From: Phycisphaera mikurensis
Lineage (GTDB): Bacteria > Planctomycetota > B15-G4 > JADJEK01
Assembly: GCA_020723465.1 (NCBI GenBank)
Contig: DYIW01000002.1
Coordinates: forward strand, 7,048-52,180
DNA length: 45,133 nt
Reading direction: 5' to 3'
This document shows, in pieces, positions 1,694-17,565 of the stretch (the stretch's first letter is position 1; each line of letters starts with the position of its first letter). Under the pieces are notes generated by a model that was not told the origin of the DNA, searched no databases, and saw only the letters and a list, made by a program, of their open reading frames with translations. The position numbers were made by a program, and so were the translations under genes.

Positions 1694-2110
1694 TCTTGGC
1701 CTCACACCGGTGCGGTCGAGTGACGTCGCGTTGGCGAAACCGAGCGGACGGAGGATCCCAGCGCCGCCGCCGAGCTCCCTCCGTCCACTCGCCCAGCACA
1801 CCAGGCGCTCACCCGCCGCGGTCCGGCACACGCCAGCCGCCGCTCCCTCCCTGCGCAGTGCCCCAACCCCTGAGTCGAAGCCCAGCCTGCTAGTGGGTTG
1901 TTGCCTCTTGTCTCTGGCGGGGCGGATCATTTCGCGGATTCTCGGAAAAAGTCGTGCCGGCCCTGGCGCGGCGCTCTTGTTGGACACCGCGCCCGGGTGG
2001 ACGATGGGGGGAGTGGCGCGGCGACGAGAAAGTGTCCCGCGCGGGCCCGCTGGACGAAGAGAATCGGAAATCGTGAACGGTTTCGCGGCTCCTGTGTCAA
2101 GGAAAGGGTG
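1694..2110. other. Divergent intergenic region
   Basis: About 417 bases separate two divergently transcribed genes. It should hold promoters for both. I see no clear -35/-10 pair, operator palindrome or RNA gene. The only confident signal is the purine-rich ribosome site AAGGAAAGGGTG just before the sigma-fusion ATG at 2111. Confidence 0.4.
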
Positions 2111-5100
2111 ATGGATCGCCAGGAGCTGAACGCACTGTACTTGCGCTTCCGCGAGCACGGCGAGCCCGGGGCACTGGCCAGGCTGTTCGACGCCACGGCG
2201 CCGGAGCTGTTGCGCGTGGCGCGCCATCTTGCGCGCGATGAGGCCGAGGCCGAGGACGTCCTCCAGGCGACGTTCCTGGCCGCCATCGAGGGGGCCGCGC
2301 GCTTCGACGCGGAGCAGAACGTGCTTCCCTGGCTGGTCGGCATCCTCGCCATCCAGGTCAAGGTCGCGCGGCGGCGGGCGCGCCGCTGTCCCGACCCGGC
2401 CCGGCTGCGCCAGGAGACGCCCCGGGATCCCGCGGAGCAGGCTGAGGAGCGCGAGCTACGCCGCGAGCTGGATGGCGCGCTGGCGCGGATGCCGCCTCAT
2501 TACCGGGAGGTCCTCGTCCCTCACCTGAATGGCCGGCGCGGGACGGAGATCGCCAGCGACCTGAACCGCTCGGTGGACACGGTCCGCACCCAGATCGACC
2601 GCGGCCTGCGGCTCCTGCGCCGCTCCCTGCCGCCCGGCTTCCTCGCCGGCAGCCTGCTCGTGGCCATCGAGCCGAGAGGCCTGGGAGCCGTGCGCGGGGC
2701 GGTGCTGCGGCGCGCCGCGGAGCTCGCGGCTCCCGCGGCGGCGGGAGGGGCGTCGCTGGCCGGCGGGCTCTTGCTCCTCAAGAAGTTCGTCTGGGTGGCC
2801 GCGCTCGTGGCGCTCGTGCCGCTGCTCTGGCTGCTGCCGCCCGGGGCCGATCCGGACACGGCACGAGACGTGGCCGGGGCGGGCGCGGCCGCGCCAGCGG
2901 GCGCCGATCCTGTCGGGTTCGAGGAACGCGCCGAGGTGGAGCTGGGTGCGACGGACGGTGCGGCGGAAGGGCGCGGCGCCGGCCAGGGCGGCGTGGTTCG
3001 CGACCACAAGGGAATGCCCGTTTCGGGTGCGCGAGTCGCCGTGGTCGCGACCGACGCCCAGGTGGGCGACCCGTTGCTCTTCGAGACCCTCTCCGGCGCG
3101 GGCGGGGGCTTCACCGTGCCGAATGATCTGGCGGGCGTCGTCTTCGCCGATAAGGAGGGCCTGGGACGCAAGGACGGCCACCGCCTGGAGATCCGCTTCG
3201 ACCCGCCGGCCCTGCTCGAGGGCGTGGTGCGCTGGCGGGACGGCGGCGCCGTGCCCGGCGCGCGCGTGGAGTGCCTCGACCTGCTGTCCCACTACCTCGA
3301 GCCCCCGGCAGCCGTGACCGGGGTGGACGGCCGCTTCTCCTTCACGGAGACGCTGCCCGCGGAGTGCCTGCTGCGCGTGAAGCGGCCCGACTCGAGCGTC
3401 GCCGGCCTGTGGCCCTTGCGCCTGGCCGAGGGCACGCCGAACCACCGTGAATTCGAGATCGGCGGGGGCGTGGACCTGGAAGTGACGGTCCGCGACGCGT
3501 TCTCACGCGCGCCGCTGGCCGGCGCCCTGGTGCTGTGCGTTGCTCCGGCGGGGACGCGCAACGGCCGGCCGGCGCTGGACCGCTTTCCGCTGTACGCGCT
3601 GGCGCGTGGCGACGAGCGCGGCGTGGCCCTGGTCCGGGGGCTGCCGGTCTCGCGCTACCGCCTGTTCGTCGCGAAGGAGGGCATGGCGCCGCACGCCGGG
3701 GAGTTCCACGTCACGCAGCGCGCCGGCCCGCTGGCACGTTCGGTCGCGTTGACGAGGGGTTGCCGCCTCGAGGGAGCGGTATTCGATGCGGGGGGACTCC
3801 CCGCGCCAGGGGCGGAGGTCTGGCTGGAGACGCCGCTCTCCCGGCACGAGGCCAAGGACCGCGAGCACGTCTTCGCCTCCGCCGCTCGCATCCGCGATCT
3901 ACCCGGAGGTGTCAACCCGTTCTCTCTTGGGACGAAGAGCGACGGCCTGGGGCGCTACTCGTTCACGGACGCGGCGCCTGCCGGCGGTCTCGTGGTCCGG
4001 GCGCGGGACGCGGCGGGGCGGAGCGGCCTCTCCGCCGCCCTGGTTCTCGCCCCCGGCGCCGAAGTGCGCGGCGTCGATCTCCGCCTGCGGCGCAGGGTGC
4101 ACGTGGAGGGCACCATCCGGACCGAGGATGGCGATCCTCTGCCGGCGGCGCTCCTCCTGGCGGTCGCGGGCGGCGCGCGGCCCAGGTGGCTTCCGGTGGC
4201 CGGCGGCGCCACGGCCGTTGAGTTCGGCCTCGAGGCGGACGAGGCGGACCCGCTGCGCATCGGCGTGAAGGCCGAGGGCTACGCCCTGGCGACGCTCGAC
4301 CTCGCACCCCTGCCCGCCGGCTCCACCGGGGTGGAAGTCCTGCTCGGGCGCGGCGAAACGCTCGCGTTGCGCGTCCTCGACGAGCACTCGCTGCCCGCTG
4401 CCGGGGCGGAGGTGAAGGCCTACCTCCTGGACGAGCGCGAGCACGAGCGCCTTTCCGTGTTCTTTGGATCAGCGGGCACGCGGCGGGGCGACGACGAGCT
4501 GTGGTTCGAGCGGGGCCGGACCGGCGAGGACGGGCGGCTCAGCTTGCGCGGCCTGCCCGCTGCTCCCTTCCTGGTGACCGTGGCGGCGCGCCGCGGCGGT
4601 GCCAGGGCGTGCGAGCGGCTGCGGCCTGGCGCCCCCGAGAGCACCGTGGTCCTTGCCTCCTCGCCGGCGGAAGCGGCCGGGATCGTGCCGGGCGGCAGCG
4701 TGCGCGGCCGGGTGGTGTCGGTCTTGACTGGGGATCCAGTCACCGACTTCCGGGCCGTCCTCCTCGTCCTGAACGGCGACGGATCGCTCGCCGGCGAGAT
4801 CGCGGGCAACGTCCTCGCGGACGCATTCGAGTTTGGCCTGGCGCCAGCGGGTCGCGTGCTGCGCGTGCTGGTCGCGGCGCAAGGCCGCGCTCCCGGCGCG
4901 AGCGGCGCCTTCGTTCGTAGTGGGCGAACGACCTCGATCGACGCGGTCAGCCTGGGTGAGGGGGTGAGCGCTGAGCTCACCTTCGCTTCCACCCTGAGCC
5001 AGCCCCTGGCTGGGCTGCCCGCGCGACTGATCCCGCTGGCGCCTCTTTCCTGGCGCGACGGCCCGATCGCGGCGGCGGCGAACGGCCTCACGGATGGCGC

Positions 5101-5482
5101 GGGCGCGGTTCGCTTCGAGCACCTGGCGCCCGGTCGCTACCGGGCCGAGGTGGAGTTCCCCGGCCTGGCGCCCGCGAACGGCGAGTTCGTCGAGGTCGGC
5201 CAGCAGGACCTCTCGGGGTCCGTCCAGCTCCTCCCGGGCGGCGCGGTCGCGTTCGTCTTCCTGGGCGCCGGCGTGTCGTTCGTGCCGTACGAGGTGAGCA
5301 GCGCGGACGGGCGCCTGGTATTCCGCCACGTGTTCCGCTCCACCAATGACGTGCTGCGCCTCGCCCTGCCCGCGGGGAACTACCTGGGCCAGGCGCTCGG
5401 CCGGGGATCGGCCGAGGCGCCGCTGCGCTTCGCCGCGACGGCGGGGAGCGCGCAGCGCATCATCGTGCTCTCGTCGCCCTGA
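2111..5482 (+). CDS. ECF-type sigma-70 factor fused to a membrane helix and a large carboxypeptidase-regulatory-like exterior
   Basis: 1123 residues. The frame is open upstream but the ATG at 2111 has a ribosome site (AGGAAAGGG) and begins the sigma domain directly. Residues about 1-90 match sigma region 2 (acidic DEAEAEDVLQATF), and residues about 125-180 match region 4 with a helix-turn-helix (GTEIASDLNRSVDTVRTQIDRG). A hydrophobic helix follows at about residues 226-246 (VWVAALVALVPLLWLLPPGA). The remaining roughly 870 residues are repeated beta-sandwich modules with carboxypeptidase-regulatory signatures (GVVRDHKGMPVSGARVAVV, EGTIRTEDGDPLP, GRVVSVLTGDPVTDF). Ordinary ECF factors are about 180-200 residues. 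The topology implies a membrane-tethered sigma factor that senses something outside the membrane. Release by proteolysis is an inference. Targets are unknown. Confidence 0.88.
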   Translation: MDRQELNALYLRFREHGEPGALARLFDATAPELLRVARHLARDEAEAEDVLQATFLAAIEGAARFDAEQNVLPWLVGILAIQVKVARRRARRCPDPARLRQETPRDPAEQAEERELRRELDGALARMPPHYREVLVPHLNGRRGTEIASDLNRSVDTVRTQIDRGLRLLRRSLPPGFLAGSLLVAIEPRGLGAVRGAVLRRAAELAAPAAAGGASLAGGLLLLKKFVWVAALVALVPLLWLLPPGADPDTARDVAGAGAAAPAGADPVGFEERAEVELGATDGAAEGRGAGQGGVVRDHKGMPVSGARVAVVATDAQVGDPLLFETLSGAGGGFTVPNDLAGVVFADKEGLGRKDGHRLEIRFDPPALLEGVVRWRDGGAVPGARVECLDLLSHYLEPPAAVTGVDGRFSFTETLPAECLLRVKRPDSSVAGLWPLRLAEGTPNHREFEIGGGVDLEVTVRDAFSRAPLAGALVLCVAPAGTRNGRPALDRFPLYALARGDERGVALVRGLPVSRYRLFVAKEGMAPHAGEFHVTQRAGPLARSVALTRGCRLEGAVFDAGGLPAPGAEVWLETPLSRHEAKDREHVFASAARIRDLPGGVNPFSLGTKSDGLGRYSFTDAAPAGGLVVRARDAAGRSGLSAALVLAPGAEVRGVDLRLRRRVHVEGTIRTEDGDPLPAALLLAVAGGARPRWLPVAGGATAVEFGLEADEADPLRIGVKAEGYALATLDLAPLPAGSTGVEVLLGRGETLALRVLDEHSLPAAGAEVKAYLLDEREHERLSVFFGSAGTRRGDDELWFERGRTGEDGRLSLRGLPAAPFLVTVAARRGGARACERLRPGAPESTVVLASSPAEAAGIVPGGSVRGRVVSVLTGDPVTDFRAVLLVLNGDGSLAGEIAGNVLADAFEFGLAPAGRVLRVLVAAQGRAPGASGAFVRSGRTTSIDAVSLGEGVSAELTFASTLSQPLAGLPARLIPLAPLSWRDGPIAAAANGLTDGAGAVRFEHLAPGRYRAEVEFPGLAPANGEFVEVGQQDLSGSVQLLPGGAVAFVFLGAGVSFVPYEVSSADGRLVFRHVFRSTNDVLRLALPAGNYLGQALGRGSAEAPLRFAATAGSAQRIIVLSSP

Positions 5483-8352: not shown

Positions 8353-8397
8353 AGACCACGGGCTCCTCCGGGACTCGATCCCGGGGGAGCCCGGTCT
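8353..8397. terminator. Bidirectional hairpin terminator between convergent genes
   Basis: A long, nearly perfect stem (AGAC, two unpaired bases, then CGGGCTCC and CCGGGA on the left arm against TCCCGG, GGAGCCCG and GTCT on the right) closes on CTCGA. It is followed by TTC on the plus strand and GTTCG on the minus strand. It lies 30 nt after the matrixin stop. On the minus strand it lies 12 nt after the extended end (8410) of the selenoprotein candidate, but over 130 nt after its UGA. This placement supports translation through the UGA. Confidence 0.75.
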
Positions 8398-8409: not shown

Positions 8410-9858
8410 TCAGTAGCGGAAGGTGCGCTTCTCGATCTTCGTCTCGAACGGTCCCACCTGGTACTGGCACGCGATGACGTACTCGACGCCCTTCTTGGGG
8501 CCGCTCCATGCGGCCGAGCAGCTAAAGCCTCACCCGTACTTGAAGGTGCCCTGGGCGACATTCTCACCCGCGGCCGTGACGATGGTGTAGCTCGGTTCCG
8601 CCGGGCGGGCCCTGCTGCTCTGCGAGAGGACGACCGAGCTCTTCTTGCCCGAGACGAGCTGGAGGTCGGTCAGGAGCTCCTGAGCCCGTCCCTGGACGTT
8701 GAACCCGAGGTCGGCCTCAGTCGCGCCGGTCTCCTGCATGTTGCGCAGGGACCATTCAGACACCTGCGCCACGGGCAGGTAGGGCTCGCCGAACTCGAGC
8801 AGGGCCTCGGCGCCGGGCGCGACGCTCAGGAAGGGCGTGGCGCCGCTGCCTGCGGCCTCGAGCCGCCAGAGGTCGCCCTCCTTGCCGCTCTGCAGCAGCG
8901 CGTAGCGGAGCAGCCGCCAGTCGCCGGCCGGGATCCTGGGATTGACCGGCCGGTGCATCATGACGCAATGCGCGAAGTTCCGCTCGAGCAGGGTCAGGCG
9001 CTCCGGCGCCTGGGAGAGCTTGAGCGGCACGATCTCGTCCTCTACCGGCGCGAGCGCCAGCTTCCTGGCGGCCGTGTCGACCTTCACCGTGAACGCCTTC
9101 TCGCCGAGGATCAGGAGATCGCCCAGCAGAAACTCGTCCGCTCGCGACATCTTCTGCTCGGCCGTGAGGTACAGGCTGTCCCCCTGCGCGTAGATCGGCT
9201 GATCCGCGGACACGTACAAGTTCTCGGGGATGCGCGCCGTGTCGGAGAAGACTCCGTTGCAGTCGCCGTCCCCGAGCATGACCTGGTAGGTGGCGCCGTC
9301 CAGCGTGAACGAGCCGGCGTAGTGGCAGGCGGTGTCGACGCCGAAGTAGATGAAGCGCGCGGCGTCGCCGCCGTCCTCCTGGTTCTGCCCCTGCAGGCGG
9401 AAGCCCAGCCGGTAGGGCAGGACTGCGCCGCCGAGGCGGTATTCGACCGAGACCTCGTCGTCGAAGGAGACGTAGTACTGCTCGATGTCGCCGAAGCGGG
9501 CCAGATCTCCCACGAGGACCGGGTCGTCCGTGAGGTCGCCGTTGTCGTTCCGGTCGAAGCGGATGCGGTTGTAGAAGCCGTCGTCCGCCGCGACGCGATC
9601 AAGCACGGCCAGGAAGTCGGTCTCGCCGAGGGTCACGGTTGCGAAGAGCGGCCGCGCGCCGGTCAAGTCCGGCAGGTTCCAGTCGCCGCCGGGACAGTCG
9701 GGTGAAGGCTGCGCGTGGGCGCTCCCCCAGGGATGGACAGCGTCCTTGTCGTCGAGGTTCTGCCGGTACTCGAGCGCCACCTCCAGCGTCTGCGCGGGCG
9801 CGAGGCCGCACAGCAGCAAAAGCAGCGCGAGGGACCGGACCGGGAATCCACAGATCAT
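8410..9858 (-). CDS. Putative exported selenoprotein, new family, member A (Sec encoded by UGA at 8530-8532)
   Basis: 482 residues if UGA is read as selenocysteine at residue 443; 442 if not. The start at 9858 has AGGAGG upstream and a signal peptide (ALLLLLCGLAPAQ). Two Ca-binding-like acidic loops are visible (DRNDNGDLTDD at about 102-112, and DGDCNGVFSD). The frame continues past UGA for 39 residues, GFSCSAAWSGPKKG..., to a real stop. This tail matches the tail after UGA in the paralogue at 15729-17198 in 17 of 28 positions. The proposed motif is YG-U-GFSC, a UxxxC pair, with another Cys 17 residues on. A SECIS-like hairpin follows the UGA. The start is divergent from the lipoprotein at 10027; selB is nearby. 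The chemistry is unknown, presumably thiol/selenol redox in the envelope. It matches no family I know. Confidence 0.88.
8499..8515 (-). promoter_or_regulatory. SECIS-like hairpin of selenoprotein A
   Basis: Starting 15 nt after the UGA, a perfect 6-bp stem GGCCGC/GCGGCC encloses the loop ATGGA. The loop starts 21 nt after the UGA, inside the known range for bacterial SECIS elements, and carries the required G residues. A weaker lower pairing CTT/AAG lies outside it. The geometry (14 nt, 6 bp, 5-nt loop A-N-G-G-R) is the same as in the other two selenoprotein candidates in this window. It is likely bound by the C-terminal winged helices of SelB. Confidence 0.75.
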
Positions 9859-10026: not shown

Positions 10027-10719
10027 ATGGACCGAATCGCCGTGACCGTTGCCGCTGGCGTCGTGTTGCTGTTCGTGACCGGAGGCTGCGCGCGGAAGGA
10101 AGAACGTCCACCGGCCGCCGAGGGAACCTTCGCGATTTCCGGCTTGCCGGCCGAGATGACGGTGACGCAGCGATCCACGACGGCGGTCCCGGGATCGGAC
10201 GGGCGCGTGCGCGTGACCGTCGATGACGTCACGCGCGGCCAGGTGACGGTCACGGTGCTCGCCGAGGATGGGAGCGCGCTTGCCGGTCCGACGTCTCTTT
10301 GCCCGGCAGACCGCGTGCGATTCGCGGCGGGCGGGGGCGCCTACGTGCTGCAGCTCGAGGCGCTGGACAACGCGCTGGTGGGCGAGGACCACGCCACCCT
10401 TGTGATCGCCGCCGCGGAGGCCGGCCCGCCGGAGCGCGAGAAGATCGAGCGGCTGCTCGCGTTCGTGGCGTCGATGCAGGACGCGGTCTTCATCCGCAAC
10501 GGCGCCGAGTATCCGGCCGCGGAGGCCGCCGACCATCTGCGCTGGAAATGGGAGGCGGCCGGCGCCCGCATCCGCACGGCCGAGCAGTTTATCGAGGAGA
10601 TCGCGACGCGGTCCTCGGCCAGCGGAGAGGCCTACCAGATCCGGCTCAAGGACGGCGTGCTCGTGCCCGCGGGCGAGTACCTGAAAGAGCGGCTGGCCGA
10701 GATCAATGAGAACGGCTAG
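10027..10719 (+). CDS. DUF5329-like lipoprotein
   Basis: 230 residues. The N-terminus has a lipoprotein signal (GVVLLFVTGGC, lipidated Cys at about residue 21), so it should be anchored in the envelope. The first half is a small beta domain (FAISGLPAEMTVTQRST, RVRVTVDDVTRGQVTV). The second half, from about residue 140 (EREKIERLLAFVASMQDAVFIRNG, then EAADHLRWKWEAA and TAEQFIEEIATRSS), closely resembles the DUF5329 domain, whose function is unknown. It is transcribed divergently from selenoprotein A and ends convergently with the 4Fe-4S membrane gene; the two 3' ends overlap by 17 bp. No role in selenium metabolism can be read from the sequence. Confidence 0.75.
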   Translation: MDRIAVTVAAGVVLLFVTGGCARKEERPPAAEGTFAISGLPAEMTVTQRSTTAVPGSDGRVRVTVDDVTRGQVTVTVLAEDGSALAGPTSLCPADRVRFAAGGGAYVLQLEALDNALVGEDHATLVIAAAEAGPPEREKIERLLAFVASMQDAVFIRNGAEYPAAEAADHLRWKWEAAGARIRTAEQFIEEIATRSSASGEAYQIRLKDGVLVPAGEYLKERLAEINENG

Positions 10720-11536
10720 CGGGCGGCGCCTGCGGCCGCGAGCGCGGCGTGCGCGGCTTGGGCCCGCGCTGCACGCACACGGTCTGGCACTCGTGGCAGA
10801 CCACGCAGTCGAGGGCGCGGCTGGCGGGAACGCCCGCGCGGAAGCGCTCGGAGGGCTTGCCTTCCATGGGACAGACCTTGTTGCACTTCTCGCACTTGAG
10901 GCATTCGAACTTGGCCGGGCTGACGCTCCACAGGCTGACGTGATTGAAGGGCGCGAGCATGGCGCCGAGCGGGCACAGGACGCGGCAGAAGCCGCGCTCG
11001 AAGAAGAGCACGAGCAGCAGCACGAGGACGAGCACGCCTAGCTTGATCGCCGTGGCCAGGCTGATCGCGGCGCCGCCGATCAGGTTGGGGATCGTGACCT
11101 GGAGCGCGGAGGCGGGGCAGACGCGGCAGAAGGACCAGAGGGTCTCGGCGCCGAAGAACCAGGGCAGAGTGAAGATGGTGAGCAGGAGCACCAGGTACTT
11201 GATGTACGTGGTCCAGGCCGGCAAGGAGAGCTTGGGCGTGGGGATCTTGTGCAGCAGGTCCTGCAGGAAGCCGAAGGGGCACACCCAGCCGCACAGCAGG
11301 CGGCCGAGCAGCGCGGCCAGCAGCAGGAAGAGGCCGAGCGTCAGATAGGGGAGGACGTGCCAGCCCGAGTAATGCACGAAGATGCCCATCGGGCAGGCGA
11401 ACCAGGCGAGCGCGCATGAGTGACAGCTCAATACCGGCGCGCAGAACCACTTGAGCTGGAGGGCGGGGCTCCAGGAGCTATGCAGCAGCAGGAGGGAGAA
11501 GGTCTGCACCCACCTCCTGGTCTTCTGGATCATCAT
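10703..11536 (-). CDS. NapH-like 4Fe-4S membrane protein
   Basis: 277 residues. Several membrane helices carry cysteine clusters typical of NapH/NosR/YccM-type proteins: CHSCALAWFACP near the N-terminus, then CGWVCPFGFLQD, CRVCPASAL and CRVLCPLGAMLA. A C-terminal ferredoxin-like part has CLKCEKCNKVCPM and CVVCHECQTVC. Such proteins move electrons from quinol or cytoplasmic donors toward periplasmic partners. The gene starts 43 nt after selB on the same strand, so it is probably the last gene of a tRNA-Sec/selA/selB operon, an unusual partner. Its 3' end overlaps the convergent lipoprotein gene by 17 bp. A link to the exported selenoproteins as a source of reducing power is an inference from position only. 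The ribosome site is weak. Confidence 0.85.
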   Translation of the reverse strand: MMIQKTRRWVQTFSLLLLHSSWSPALQLKWFCAPVLSCHSCALAWFACPMGIFVHYSGWHVLPYLTLGLFLLLAALLGRLLCGWVCPFGFLQDLLHKIPTPKLSLPAWTTYIKYLVLLLTIFTLPWFFGAETLWSFCRVCPASALQVTIPNLIGGAAISLATAIKLGVLVLVLLLVLFFERGFCRVLCPLGAMLAPFNHVSLWSVSPAKFECLKCEKCNKVCPMEGKPSERFRAGVPASRALDCVVCHECQTVCVQRGPKPRTPRSRPQAPPASRSH

Positions 11537-11579: not shown

Positions 11580-13571
<1,992 letters not shown>

Positions 13572-13613: not shown

Positions 13614-15029
13614 TCATGCGTCTGCGCGCGCCGCGCGCCGCAGGGCTGCATGCACCAGCGCGTCCTCGCCGGCGAGGAGCGTGCGCATGTCGAGGATCAC
13701 CTCCTCCTCGCTGATGCGCGCGATGACGGGCGGCTCGTTCTGGCGCAGGAGCTGGCTCAGCCGGTCGGGGGAATGCCGCGCGCTCCGCACGGCCAGCACG
13801 TAGGTCTTGAGCGGCGTCGCCGGCATGGAGCCGCCGCCCGCGGCGCTCTCGTCCTCCTTGACGCGCGCCTCCAGGGGCAGGCGGTCGGCGTCGATGCGCT
13901 TCTTCAGGCGCTGCGCCCTCCGGCGCAAGTCGGCCGGGTCGGCCGCCAGCATGCGCAGGGTCGGGTGGTTCTCCAGCAGCGTCTCCTCGTCCAGGAACAG
14001 GCGCAGCGTCTGCTCGAGGGCGAGGTCGGTGAGCTTGCACACGCGCATCATGCGGGCGAAGGGGTGCTTCTTGATGCGCGCGACCAGCTCGGCGCGGCCG
14101 ACCACGATGCCGGCCTGCGGCCCGCCGATGAGCTTGTCGCCGCTGAAGCAGACGACGTCCGCGCCGGCGGCGATGCTCTCCTGCACGGTCAGCTCTTTCG
14201 GCAGGCCGAAGCGCGTGGTGTCCACCAGGGCGCCGCAGCCGACGTCGTCGATGACGATCACCGGCCGCTTCTGCTTCAGCGCGACCAGCTCGGCGATGGA
14301 CACTTCCTTGGCGAAGCCGACCACGCGGTAGTTGCTCGGGTTGGCGCGCAGGATGGCGCCGGTGCGCTCGTTGAGCGCCTCCTCGTAGTCGCGCAGGTGC
14401 GTGCGGTTGGTGGTGCCGACCGGCACGGCGATGGCGCCGCTCTGGCGGATGCAGTCCGGCAGGCGGAAGGAGCCGCCGATCTCGATGAGCTGGCCGTGCG
14501 AGACGATGACTTCCTTGCCGGCGCAGAGGGCGGAGAGGATGAGCAGCGTGGCGGCGGCGTTGTTGTTGGTGATCATCGCCGCCTCGGCGCCGGTCAGGCG
14601 CGTGAGCAGGCGCTCGCTCATGTAGCAGCGCTTGCCGCGCTTCCCGGTGTCGAGGTCGATTTGCATGCTGCAGCAACGGTCGAGCGAGGCGAGCGCGGCA
14701 GCGGCGCGCGGCGGCAGCACGGCGCGGCCGAGGCCGGTGTGCAGGATCACGCCCGTGGCGTTCACCACCGGCCGCAGGCGGTCCTTCTCCTCCTCGAGGA
14801 CGATGTGGCGCACGCGCTCCACGACCTCGCCCATGGCCGGCAGCTCATCCCCGGGGCGGAAGGCGCGGCGGAACTCGCCGAGCGCGGCCTTGATGGCGTC
14901 CAGGACCAGGGGGCGCGAGAACTCGGCGATCAGCTCGTGGATGCGCGGTTCCTCGAGCACGGCGTAGACCGGGATGAGCCCGCGTCGCGTGTCGTCGCCG
15001 CCGTCTGGGGGGGAGGAGTCTCGTGTCAT
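13614..15029 (-). CDS. selA: L-seryl-tRNA(Sec) selenium transferase SelA
   Basis: 471 residues. SelA is a PLP enzyme that converts seryl-tRNA(Sec) to selenocysteinyl-tRNA(Sec) with selenophosphate. The family motif VVCFSGDKLIGGPQAGI is present with the PLP lysine at about residue 299; other signatures are VVNATGVILHTGLGRA, NNNAAATLLIL and ILRANPSNYRVVGF. I chose the ATG at 15029 (MTRDSSPPDGG). A TTG at 15041 is in frame but only 3 nt from the tRNA-Sec 3' end. Order on the minus strand is tRNA-Sec, selA, selB, membrane 4Fe-4S protein, a compact selC-selA-selB arrangement. No selD (selenophosphate synthetase) is seen in the window. Confidence 0.97.
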   Translation of the reverse strand: MTRDSSPPDGGDDTRRGLIPVYAVLEEPRIHELIAEFSRPLVLDAIKAALGEFRRAFRPGDELPAMGEVVERVRHIVLEEEKDRLRPVVNATGVILHTGLGRAVLPPRAAAALASLDRCCSMQIDLDTGKRGKRCYMSERLLTRLTGAEAAMITNNNAAATLLILSALCAGKEVIVSHGQLIEIGGSFRLPDCIRQSGAIAVPVGTTNRTHLRDYEEALNERTGAILRANPSNYRVVGFAKEVSIAELVALKQKRPVIVIDDVGCGALVDTTRFGLPKELTVQESIAAGADVVCFSGDKLIGGPQAGIVVGRAELVARIKKHPFARMMRVCKLTDLALEQTLRLFLDEETLLENHPTLRMLAADPADLRRRAQRLKKRIDADRLPLEARVKEDESAAGGGSMPATPLKTYVLAVRSARHSPDRLSQLLRQNEPPVIARISEEEVILDMRTLLAGEDALVHAALRRAARADA

Positions 15030-15044
15030 GGGCCTATGCAAAAG

Positions 15045-15139
15045 TGGCGGAGGTGAATGGGAGTCGAACCCACCTAGCGTCTAAGCGACGATACGACGGC
15101 TTTGAAGGCCGCGGGAGCCACCGGGCCCCGCTCACCTCC
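15045..15139 (-). tRNA. selC: tRNA-Sec (anticodon UCA)
   Basis: 95 nt including an encoded CCA. The acceptor is 8 bp (GGAGGTGA/TCACCTCC), as in bacterial tRNA-Sec. The anticodon loop is CTTCAAA with UCA at 15103-15105. There is a long variable arm and a standard T arm (GGGTTCGACTCCC). It lies just upstream of selA on the same strand. It reads UGA and so makes the in-frame UGA codons of neighbouring genes decodable as selenocysteine. Confidence 0.97.
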
Positions 15140-15728: not shown

Positions 15729-17198
15729 ATGACAGGAGCGTGGAAACGACTCGCGCGGGCGGGCCTGTTCGCGGGCGCGCTCGCCGCGCCGGCCCTGGCC
15801 GAGGAGGTGGCGCTGGAGTACGTGCGCTACCCGGAAGGCGAGCAGGAGGACGAGGCGTTCCTGCCGCGCTTCACCCGCGCCATCGAGGAGATCGCGACCA
15901 GCGCGCCGCGCGGGGACTTCAAGCTGCCGCCGCTCCAGAGCAAGGAGCCCCTGTTCGCGCTCCTCGAGCTGGGCGGGGAGCCGCGGCTGCTCGTCTTCGA
16001 CCGCGCGGACGCCGGCGATCCTTTCTTCAACGTCCTTTACTGCGACGCCGATGGGGACGGCGACCTGACGAACGACCCGGCCCTGAAGAGCGTCGATGCC
16101 GAGGCCTTGCCGGGCTACCTCGAGCTGCCGCCGCTCGATCTGAAGGTGCGCGCGGGCTCCGGCCGCGCGGACTACAGCCTGCGCGTCACACTCACCTCGA
16201 GCGCGCTGCTCGAGGGCGGGGAGCTGAGCGACCCGCTCGACCTCGAGGACCTTTCCCTGCAGATCACCCCCAACTGCTGCTACGCGGGCGAAGCGGCCTG
16301 CGCCGGCGGCGCCTGCCGCCTGCTGCTCGCCGACGCGAACGTCAACGGGCGCTTCGACGACGTGGTTCGGCTCGACTCTGACGGCTACGAACCGTTCCAG
16401 GCCATCGAGCCCGCGGGCGACCTGCTCTACCTGACCACCGCGGGCACAGTCGAGGCAAGCGACTTCTGCGCGCTCGGGAACGTGCTCGCGCTCGGCCAAG
16501 ACGTGTTCCAGGTGAAGGTCGACGCGGCCGCGCGGAAGCTCGTGCTCGAGCTTTGCGCCGACGCCAGCGCGACCCTCGACCTGCCGCAGGACTGCGAGCG
16601 CCTCTGCCTCGCCTCCGAGGACGGCGGAACGTACGTGGTTCTGTTCCAGCCGGGCCGGAGCGCCTCCGTCCCTGCCGGGAAGTACCGGGTCGCCGCCTAC
16701 CGGCTGCGGCGCGCCGACGCCGAGGGCGACGTGAGGAGCCTGGCCGCGGCCGCCACGCCGCGCACGCCTTTCTTCATGGCGGCAGCGGGCGCGTCCACGG
16801 CCGTGGCCTTCGGCGAGCCCTTCGCGCCGGCGGCGCGCGTGCCGCCGAGCGCCTACGAGGAGGCCGCGGGCGCGACACCGGAATCCGTGCCGGTCGAGTT
16901 CCGCATCGACGGCAGCGCCCAGGAGGTCGTCACCGACCTCAGGCGCGTCTCGGGCAGCGCGACCAAGATCGAGATGGACGGGGTGAAGACGCACCTGCCG
17001 AAGGCGCCGGCCTACGTGATCCTGTCCGCGGCCGGGAAGATCGCTGCGCGCGGCGCCTTCGAGTATGGCTGAGGCTTCACCTGCTCGGCCACATGGGCTG
17101 GCCCAGAAGCGCAGACCAAGTACGTCGTCGTGTGCACCTACCAGGTGGGGCCCTTCGCCAGCGCGAAGGTGAAGGAGGAGATCGCGCCCTTCCCGTAG
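15729..17198 (+). CDS. Putative exported selenoprotein, new family, member B (Sec encoded by UGA at 17070-17072)
   Basis: 489 residues with Sec at residue 448; 447 if UGA stops it. The ATG at 15729 follows GAGGAG, then a signal peptide (AGLFAGALAAPALAE). It is a diverged paralogue of the protein at 8410-9858. Shared features are an N-terminal VALEY strand, an acidic loop (DADGDGDLTND, about 106-116), a second loop (DANVNGRFDD), a FQVKVDAAARKL segment and the end GAFEYG. After the UGA the frame continues GFTCSATWAGP... with YVVVC and YQVGPF to TAG at 17196, a tail conserved between the two copies. The proposed active motif is U-GFT-C. A SECIS-like hairpin follows. The signal peptide implies envelope location. 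Its enzymatic role is unknown. Confidence 0.88.
17087..17103 (+). promoter_or_regulatory. SECIS-like hairpin of selenoprotein B
   Basis: Fifteen nt after the UGA, GGCCA/TGGCC (5 bp, with an adjacent C/C mismatch) encloses CATGGGC, so the loop core ATGGG sits at +21 to +25 exactly as in copy A. A lower helix GCTTC/GAAGC (+2 to +6 with +34 to +38) closes the element. Confidence 0.75.
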
Positions 17199-17565
17199 TC
17201 CTGCAGGCGCGTCCGAGCGCAACCTGATCGACGGGGTGTGCTCCTAACATTGAGCGGCTACCGGGGTCTCGTGCCCGTGCCCGTGCCCGACGGTAGCGAA
17301 CGCCATGACCCGCTTCGATCGGGCACGGGCACGGGCACGAAACAGCCAGCCCGCCTGCTCAGGGTCGCACGCAGACCCGCGCAATCGACTTCCTCTATCA
17401 GCGCGATTCGCCGTTTCTCTTTCGCGGCGCCGAGATGGGGGAGGCGGTGCCGCCGCGCACCGGGAACGGCCCGAAAGCGGCGCTCGGCCCGCAAATTGCA
17501 TATGGGTTTTGGAGTCGGTACGCTCGCTCGTTCGCTTCCGGCGCCAGCCAGGTGGAGTTGGACCA
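17199..17565 (+). other. Intergenic region before pta
   Basis: About 367 bases without a supported gene. It holds the large GTGCCC inverted repeat (17269-17340). Nearer the gene is the only AT-richer patch (GCAAATTGCATATGGGTTTT, about 17493-17512), which could be part of the pta promoter, though I cannot assign -35 and -10 boxes with confidence. AGGTGGAG before 17566 is the pta ribosome site. Confidence 0.4.
17269..17340. repeat. 22-bp perfect inverted repeat built of GTGCCC hexamers
   Basis: The left arm (17269-17290) is about three copies of GTGCCC and the right arm (17319-17340) is its exact reverse complement. They are separated by a 28-nt spacer. It would fold into a very stable hairpin or cruciform. 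It lies between the end of selenoprotein B and pta. No T run follows, so it is not a standard terminator. It may be a dispersed intergenic repeat. Confidence 0.8.

Follow-up and report, generated by a model that had tools for sequence, protein, structure and literature searches.

Planctomycetota contain a large family of predicted exported proteins, unnamed in the libraries that we searched, in which an internal UGA codon very likely encodes selenocysteine (Sec). Two of its members are encoded in the 45,133-nucleotide stretch of DNA analyzed here (the window), which comes from an assembly assigned to Phycisphaera mikurensis. We propose that the internal UGA of both genes would be read as Sec by SelB and tRNA-Sec with the aid of a hairpin about 15-31 nt downstream, and that the Sec residue may lie within a loop of the C-terminal domain, a predicted beta-sandwich, where it would form one half of a redox pair. 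Proteins of the window type (class A) would pair it with the Cys at the fourth position after it (U-x3-C), giving a reversible Se-S bond. Class C proteins lack this Cys and would instead draw the partner, either Cys or a second Sec, from an N-terminal CxxCH (haem c-like) domain; the role of the pair would probably be extracytoplasmic selenol/thiol redox chemistry. We assign a probability of about 0.78 to this explanation as a whole. An initial annotation had read the UGA of gene 1 as Sec, and this reading is supported by a covarying hairpin, by co-occurrence with selB, and by Sec/Cys exchange at a second site. It understated the case, however, in that both the phylum-wide family and a class of genes with two UGA codons went unnoticed.

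The two genes lie on either side of a set of selenium genes, and the relevant features of the window are as follows.

8410..9858, minus strand: gene 1, predicted selenoprotein of 482 aa with Sec443, ending in TGA at 8412-8410
8530..8532, minus strand: in-frame UGA of gene 1, predicted Sec codon in YG-U-GFSC, from frame reading and family alignment
8413..8529, minus strand: conserved 39-residue tail of gene 1 after the UGA, from paralogue comparison and dN
8499..8515, minus strand: SECIS-like hairpin of gene 1, register i+j=52, 6 pairs
10703..11536, minus strand: NapH-like 4Fe-4S membrane protein, downstream of selB
11580..13571, minus strand: selB (TIGR00475, 292.5 bits against a cut-off of 242.25)
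13614..15041, minus strand: selA (PF03841, E 9.9e-130)
15045..15139, minus strand: tRNA-Sec gene (selC)
15729..17198, plus strand: gene 2, paralogue of gene 1, predicted selenoprotein of 489 aa with Sec448, ending in TAG
17070..17072, plus strand: in-frame UGA of gene 2, from frame reading
17087..17103, plus strand: SECIS-like hairpin of gene 2, register i+j=52 as in gene 1, 5 pairs

Gene 1 reads as 442 codons, TGA at 8532-8530, 39 further codons and a TGA stop, which bears out the earlier statement that its frame runs 39 residues past the UGA to a normal stop, and gene 2 reads as 447 codons, TGA at 17070-17072, 41 codons and TAG. The two products are 35% identical over 460 aa with their UGA columns aligned, and share the motif YG-U-GF[ST]CSAxWxGP...Y.V.C.YQVGPF, which extends across the UGA, so that the proposed conservation of the codon and the tail in the paralogue also holds. 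Gene 1 combines a predicted signal peptide, EF-hand-like beta modules and a C-terminal Sec domain. Between the two genes lie tRNA-Sec, selA and selB, all three as originally described, together with the NapH-like iron-sulphur membrane protein, which is a possible electron donor. The claim that the gene 1 stop lies 12 nt from a bidirectional terminator is correct as to the presence of a terminator-like stem (8359-8393); the distance is 16 nt, however, and the terminator scan scored the stem on the plus strand only. The name selenoprotein A, under which gene 1 was first described, is unsuitable because it is the established name of GrdA (glycine reductase). Neither window protein has any Pfam or NCBIfam match, and the database copy of one of them, like those of relatives, ends at the internal UGA. 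Elsewhere in the window, a single long frame (1898-5482, plus strand) encodes both CarboxypepD_reg repeats and an ECF-type sigma factor with Sigma70 regions 2 and 4, and an inverted repeat of GGGCAC-like units, recognized by eye at about 17270-17345, lies upstream of a phosphate acetyltransferase gene.

We searched 392 genomes, a sample of Planctomycetota, and the family range given here covers that phylum only. A first profile had matches in 13 of 199 Planctomycetota genomes, the window genome being counted, and a profile of the C-terminal domain in which UGA was read as Cys matched 83 of the 392 genomes, in many cases over only the first half of the domain. By hand tally, UGA-bearing matches at E<=1e-10 occur in 50 of the 392 genomes and under 30 of 100 family labels. 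The fetched loci contain 96 distinct domain hits, and the residue at the site could be read from fetched DNA in 87 of them: UGA in 83, including a few doubtful or fragmentary members (L064, L105, L109), Cys in two, Arg in one and Tyr in one. The recurrence of UGA in the same column of 83 of 87 members exceeds chance, and the search for homologues with Sec or Cys at this site, suggested in the initial annotation, has thus yielded both. A sequencing error was considered and rejected, as independent genomes share the UGA. Cys occupies the site in L062, from a genome (G387) that is 99% complete and lacks a strong selB or tRNA-Sec, and in L111. The Arg and Tyr forms (L060:2340-3824 and L061:3536-3892) are neighboring second copies in two genomes that have lost the UGA, and L060 has lost the Cys at +4 as well. 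Neither TAA nor TAG is seen at the site in the 87 members or in the nine hits that stop short of it, so homologues ending there in TAA or TAG, which would have counted against readthrough, are absent from this set. Of the nine short hits, L108 carries a TGA near the site, within a separate loop, and L105 is a fragment of a frame next to a hit that was already counted. The other seven (L075, L078, L115-L119) are mostly long proteins of hundreds of residues, most of them with a GPF-like end, and have no Sec/Cys loop; they were fetched from 26 weak hits of this type, by hand count, in the domain search. These proteins are a more distant, Sec-less outer branch that shares the front of the domain, which implies that the fold does not need Sec.

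If the UGA were a true stop, and the tail a decaying or chance open frame, database proteins should terminate at this position, and 36 of the 37 database homologues listed do end exactly at the Sec site (6 of class A, 29 of class C, and P0010); the exception, P0011, is a fragment of 146 aa encoded on a contig of 693 bases, and the DNA behind these 37 proteins was seen only where it coincides with fetched loci. We nevertheless regard this explanation as extremely improbable because the tail is kept between paralogues of 35% identity and in 83 members, and in the four members that lack UGA the frame continues past the site, which encodes Cys, Arg or Tyr. Selection on the tail points the same way. 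Comparison with the sister genome yields three orthologue pairs, in which tail dN is 0.058, 0.045 and 0.030 compared to body dN of 0.103, 0.122 and 0.262, and tail dN is lower than body dN in seven of nine pairs, the two exceptions being L076/L102 and L051/L082; the prospect of an unconstrained tail, raised at the outset as an argument against readthrough, is therefore not what these values show. Tail dN/dS is below 1 in seven of the nine pairs and at least 1 in two pairs other than these exceptions, both with a very low dS in the tail, for which an RNA hairpin overlapping the coding sequence could be responsible. On the Sec reading, the 36 proteins that end at the site mean that the databases probably hold many truncated planctomycete proteins. 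Searches of the protein collection scored about 8,000 word-sharing candidates each, so that rare Cys forms may be missed, and a pattern scan of the collection reached a single relative because its patterns read UGA as Cys. A hydrophobic N-terminus is present in 82 of the 87 members, with starts partly chosen by hydropathy, and on the basis of these N-termini it is very likely that the protein acts outside the cytoplasm.

Numbering the U of UGA as 1, nucleotides downstream of the codon pair as i with 52-i in class A and as i with 50-i in class C, and the class A stem comprises columns 18-24 with 28-34. At least six pairs form in register in 25 of 43 sequences in class A and in 27 of 39 in class C, whereas in the other registers tried (38 to 67) at least six pairs are found in at most four sequences. 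The covariation score on the full alignment is 0.571 for class A, compared to 0.090-0.250 for slid controls, and 0.477 for class C, compared to 0.075-0.201, and in both classes none of 500 shuffles attained this score or as high a percentage of paired cells; on the cruder tallies of pairs and of pair types, 36 to 264 of 500 shuffles did as well as the real alignments. Between genes 1 and 2 a compensatory change replaces G-C (gene 1) with A-U (gene 2) at columns 22:30. Class C genes have a further site (site 1) that holds either TGA or a Cys codon, and here, in register 54, at least six pairs form in 19 of the 27 TGA genes and in none of the 13 Cys genes (Fisher p 1.9e-5), two of the latter having five pairs in register; the covariation score is 0.328, compared to 0.061-0.177 for slid controls. 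Fewer than six pairs in register are present in 18 of 43 class A sequences, 12 of 39 class C sequences and 8 of 27 at site 1. The 45 nt after the UGA are more stable than control windows from the same genes (n=81, p 7e-10), but this excess becomes small after codon resampling (mean z -0.45 compared to -0.13 for control windows, p 0.008), and the window hairpins taken alone are not unusual relative to shuffles (folding z -0.01 to -1.2). Support for a SECIS-like element therefore comes from where the hairpin lies, from its covariation and from the contrast between Sec and Cys genes rather than from its stability.

These data also bear on a reading without selenium, in which the UGA would specify tryptophan or be passed by unspecific readthrough. 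Conservation by itself does not tell which residue is inserted, and this leaves such a reading some room, but we consider it highly improbable. Gene 1 itself ends in TGA, making a general reassignment of the code unlikely, the usual alternative residue is Cys rather than Trp, and a hairpin follows the UGA at both sites, with none of at least six pairs in the 13 genes whose site 1 holds a Cys codon. Moreover, the family co-occurs with selB. With strong selB defined by a threshold from the curated cut-off and counts read by hand, and taking the 217 good-quality genomes (completeness of 90% or more, contamination of 5% or less), strong selB is present in all 27 genomes that have a UGA-bearing member at E<=1e-10, compared to 124 of 217 overall (p 8e-8, relatedness being ignored). 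Without the quality filter, 45 of the 50 genomes with a UGA-bearing member at this threshold have strong selB; of the remaining five (G304, G131, G280, G211, G008), three have a strong tRNA-Sec and two, which are 82% and 77% complete, have neither. Seven further genomes have UGA-bearing hits weaker than E<=1e-10 (G149, G139, G322, G270, G018, G094, G124); G149 and G270 are without strong selB, and of these G149 has a strong tRNA-Sec. The window genome contains selA, selB, selC and selD, the last of these outside the window. The selD gene (G000:C171:2054-2980, L140) has one in-frame TGA and is therefore probably itself a selenoprotein gene.

The 83 UGA members fall into two classes that differ in what precedes the Sec domain. 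In class A (43 members) it follows D-x-N-x-N-G-D-L-T-D-D modules or other N-termini, and in class C (40 members) it follows a CxxCH domain, in which the CxxCH is invariant in the 35 members aligned. Site 1 of class C lies 26 residues past the first Cys of CxxCH in all 40 members, and its codon is TGA in 27 and Cys in 13, so that the genes with TGA at site 1 carry two in-frame TGA codons, and L096 three; L051, L055 and L088 are among these 27 genes. A Cys at +4 from Sec is present in 34 of 43 class A members, being missing in the other nine, and in none of 40 class C members; for any Cys within +1..+8 the counts are 40 of 43 and 3 of 40, and when the sequences are clustered at 50% identity those for +4 become 27 of 35 and 0 of 25. 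The presence of the +4 Cys only where site 1 is absent suggests that the two are interchangeable redox partners, although shared ancestry within each class could also produce this pattern. The loss of both Sec and this Cys in L060, and the thioredoxin-like ends of five relatives described below, point towards redox chemistry as well. On these grounds we lean towards the view that Sec would work as one half of a redox pair in the manner described above.

It is unlikely that Sec, rather than forming a redox pair, serves to bind metals or metalloids (mercury, copper, arsenic) or ligates the haem-like CxxCH centre of class C. Class C Sec has no nearby Cys (+4, 0 of 40), the strict spacing of Sec or Cys at site 1 from CxxCH could suit an axial ligand, and several selenoproteins in the available part of Table 1 in PMC13188914 handle metals. 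The exchange of a local Cys for a distant Sec or Cys, however, fits a resolving partner better than a ligand, and no recurring metal gene is present among the neighbor clusters listed. Within the redox-pair reading, formation of a diselenide by class C is improbable. It is doubtful, too, that the family as a whole would constitute a new beta-sandwich selenoprotein superfamily with an exchangeable Sec partner, in which the class C two-Sec proteins would be haem-wired electron carriers with an interdomain diselenide; we know of no precedent for an extracytoplasmic diselenide electron carrier. With two predicted Sec residues per protein in a haem-like context, class C would make natural Se-Se chemistry directly testable.

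The Sec domain is predicted to be mostly beta (mean pLDDT 91), and alpha-2-macroglobulin MG and fibronectin-III-like beta sandwiches are among the closest systems to this predicted beta-sandwich. Foldseek alone gave no strong fold match, and absence from the structural match lists carries no weight. Sequence matches to DARPin entries in the PDB (best E 3.8e-05) were set aside, as they cover residues 45-107 only and look low-complexity. Profile scans at E 0.01 took 67 of the 87 members. In these 67 members Pfam gave weak hits only, to four families, with neither thioredoxin nor PF04723 among them, and NCBIfam gave weak hits only, to six families, among which were neither NF041046 nor hypothetical protein DG (NF049953). 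For class C, the curated cytochrome c profiles of Pfam gave one weak match (E 0.0044), and those of NCBIfam a few weak matches (best E 0.00056). The statement that the motif matches no named family therefore stands for these libraries, and none of the 119 families and subfamilies in Table 1 of the 2026 inventory of prokaryotic selenoproteins has this motif or architecture, as far as the accessible portion of that source extends (PMC13188914). The family was also not found in the open-access literature searched, a scope that leaves subscription papers mostly outside.

Most characterized prokaryotic selenoproteins have a thioredoxin-like fold, according to the portion of PMC13188914 consulted, and the presence of a UGA-bearing domain that is predicted to be mostly beta and exported in 50 of 392 genomes contrasts with this prevailing pattern. 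Like the thioredoxin-fold selenoproteins (UxxC or CxxU; PF00085, PF13098 and others), class A places Sec near a Cys, and a redox role is likewise presumed, but the spacing here is U-x3-C, the Sec domain is predicted to be mostly beta, and no thioredoxin profile matches the 67 members; among relatives that have a similar N-terminal module, the five that were scanned all carry a thioredoxin-like domain at their end, a sixth (L014) lying outside the scan. The UGSC-containing selenoprotein (NF041046) shares a motif opening with U-G and a close Cys, whereas the motif here is G-U-G-x-x-C and its model matches none of the 67 members. GrdA (PF04723), judging from the sections of the literature at hand, was long thought to be without Cys homologues, a bias that recalls the Sec to Cys ratio of 83 to 2 in the close family, but GrdA has a CxxU motif and its profile matches none of the 67 members. 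Cys homologues of GrdA have been reported, at least in the text available to us (PMC12013277), whereas the more distant branch here lacks both Sec and Cys. ExtKL, the GSU2204 family and octaheme tetrathionate reductase resemble class C in joining CxxCH to Sec, as given in the accessible part of Table 1 (PMC13188914); class C differs from them in having one CxxCH, two Sec positions and a beta domain, and none of their models is among the NCBIfam hits of the 67 members. According to the excerpted text of PMC12013277, no known selenoprotein now seems to be without Cys homologues, and its authors state that deep-Sep can miss selenoproteins without them. With Sec in 83 of 87 close members, pipelines that require Cys homologues would tend to miss the present family. 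Other selenoproteins of planctomycetes are described in the part of PMC4807772 that we consulted.

Members lie near sel genes on the same contig in six genomes, namely the window genome, its sister G019, G286, G283, G031 and G008. Of these, G286 is 99% complete on a single contig and contains four hits, one of which is weak; a relative in culture may therefore exist. The neighbor clusters listed, many of which are spurious antisense frames, contain no conserved partner beyond selA, selB and, in three genomes, an AIRS-type gene. Those members with selA, selB and an AIRS-type gene nearby are at L063, L064, L065 and L066 (G286, G283, G031). In addition, the member at L022 (G093) has a corrinoid-binding gene beside it, and the one at L018 (G031) a URO-D gene.
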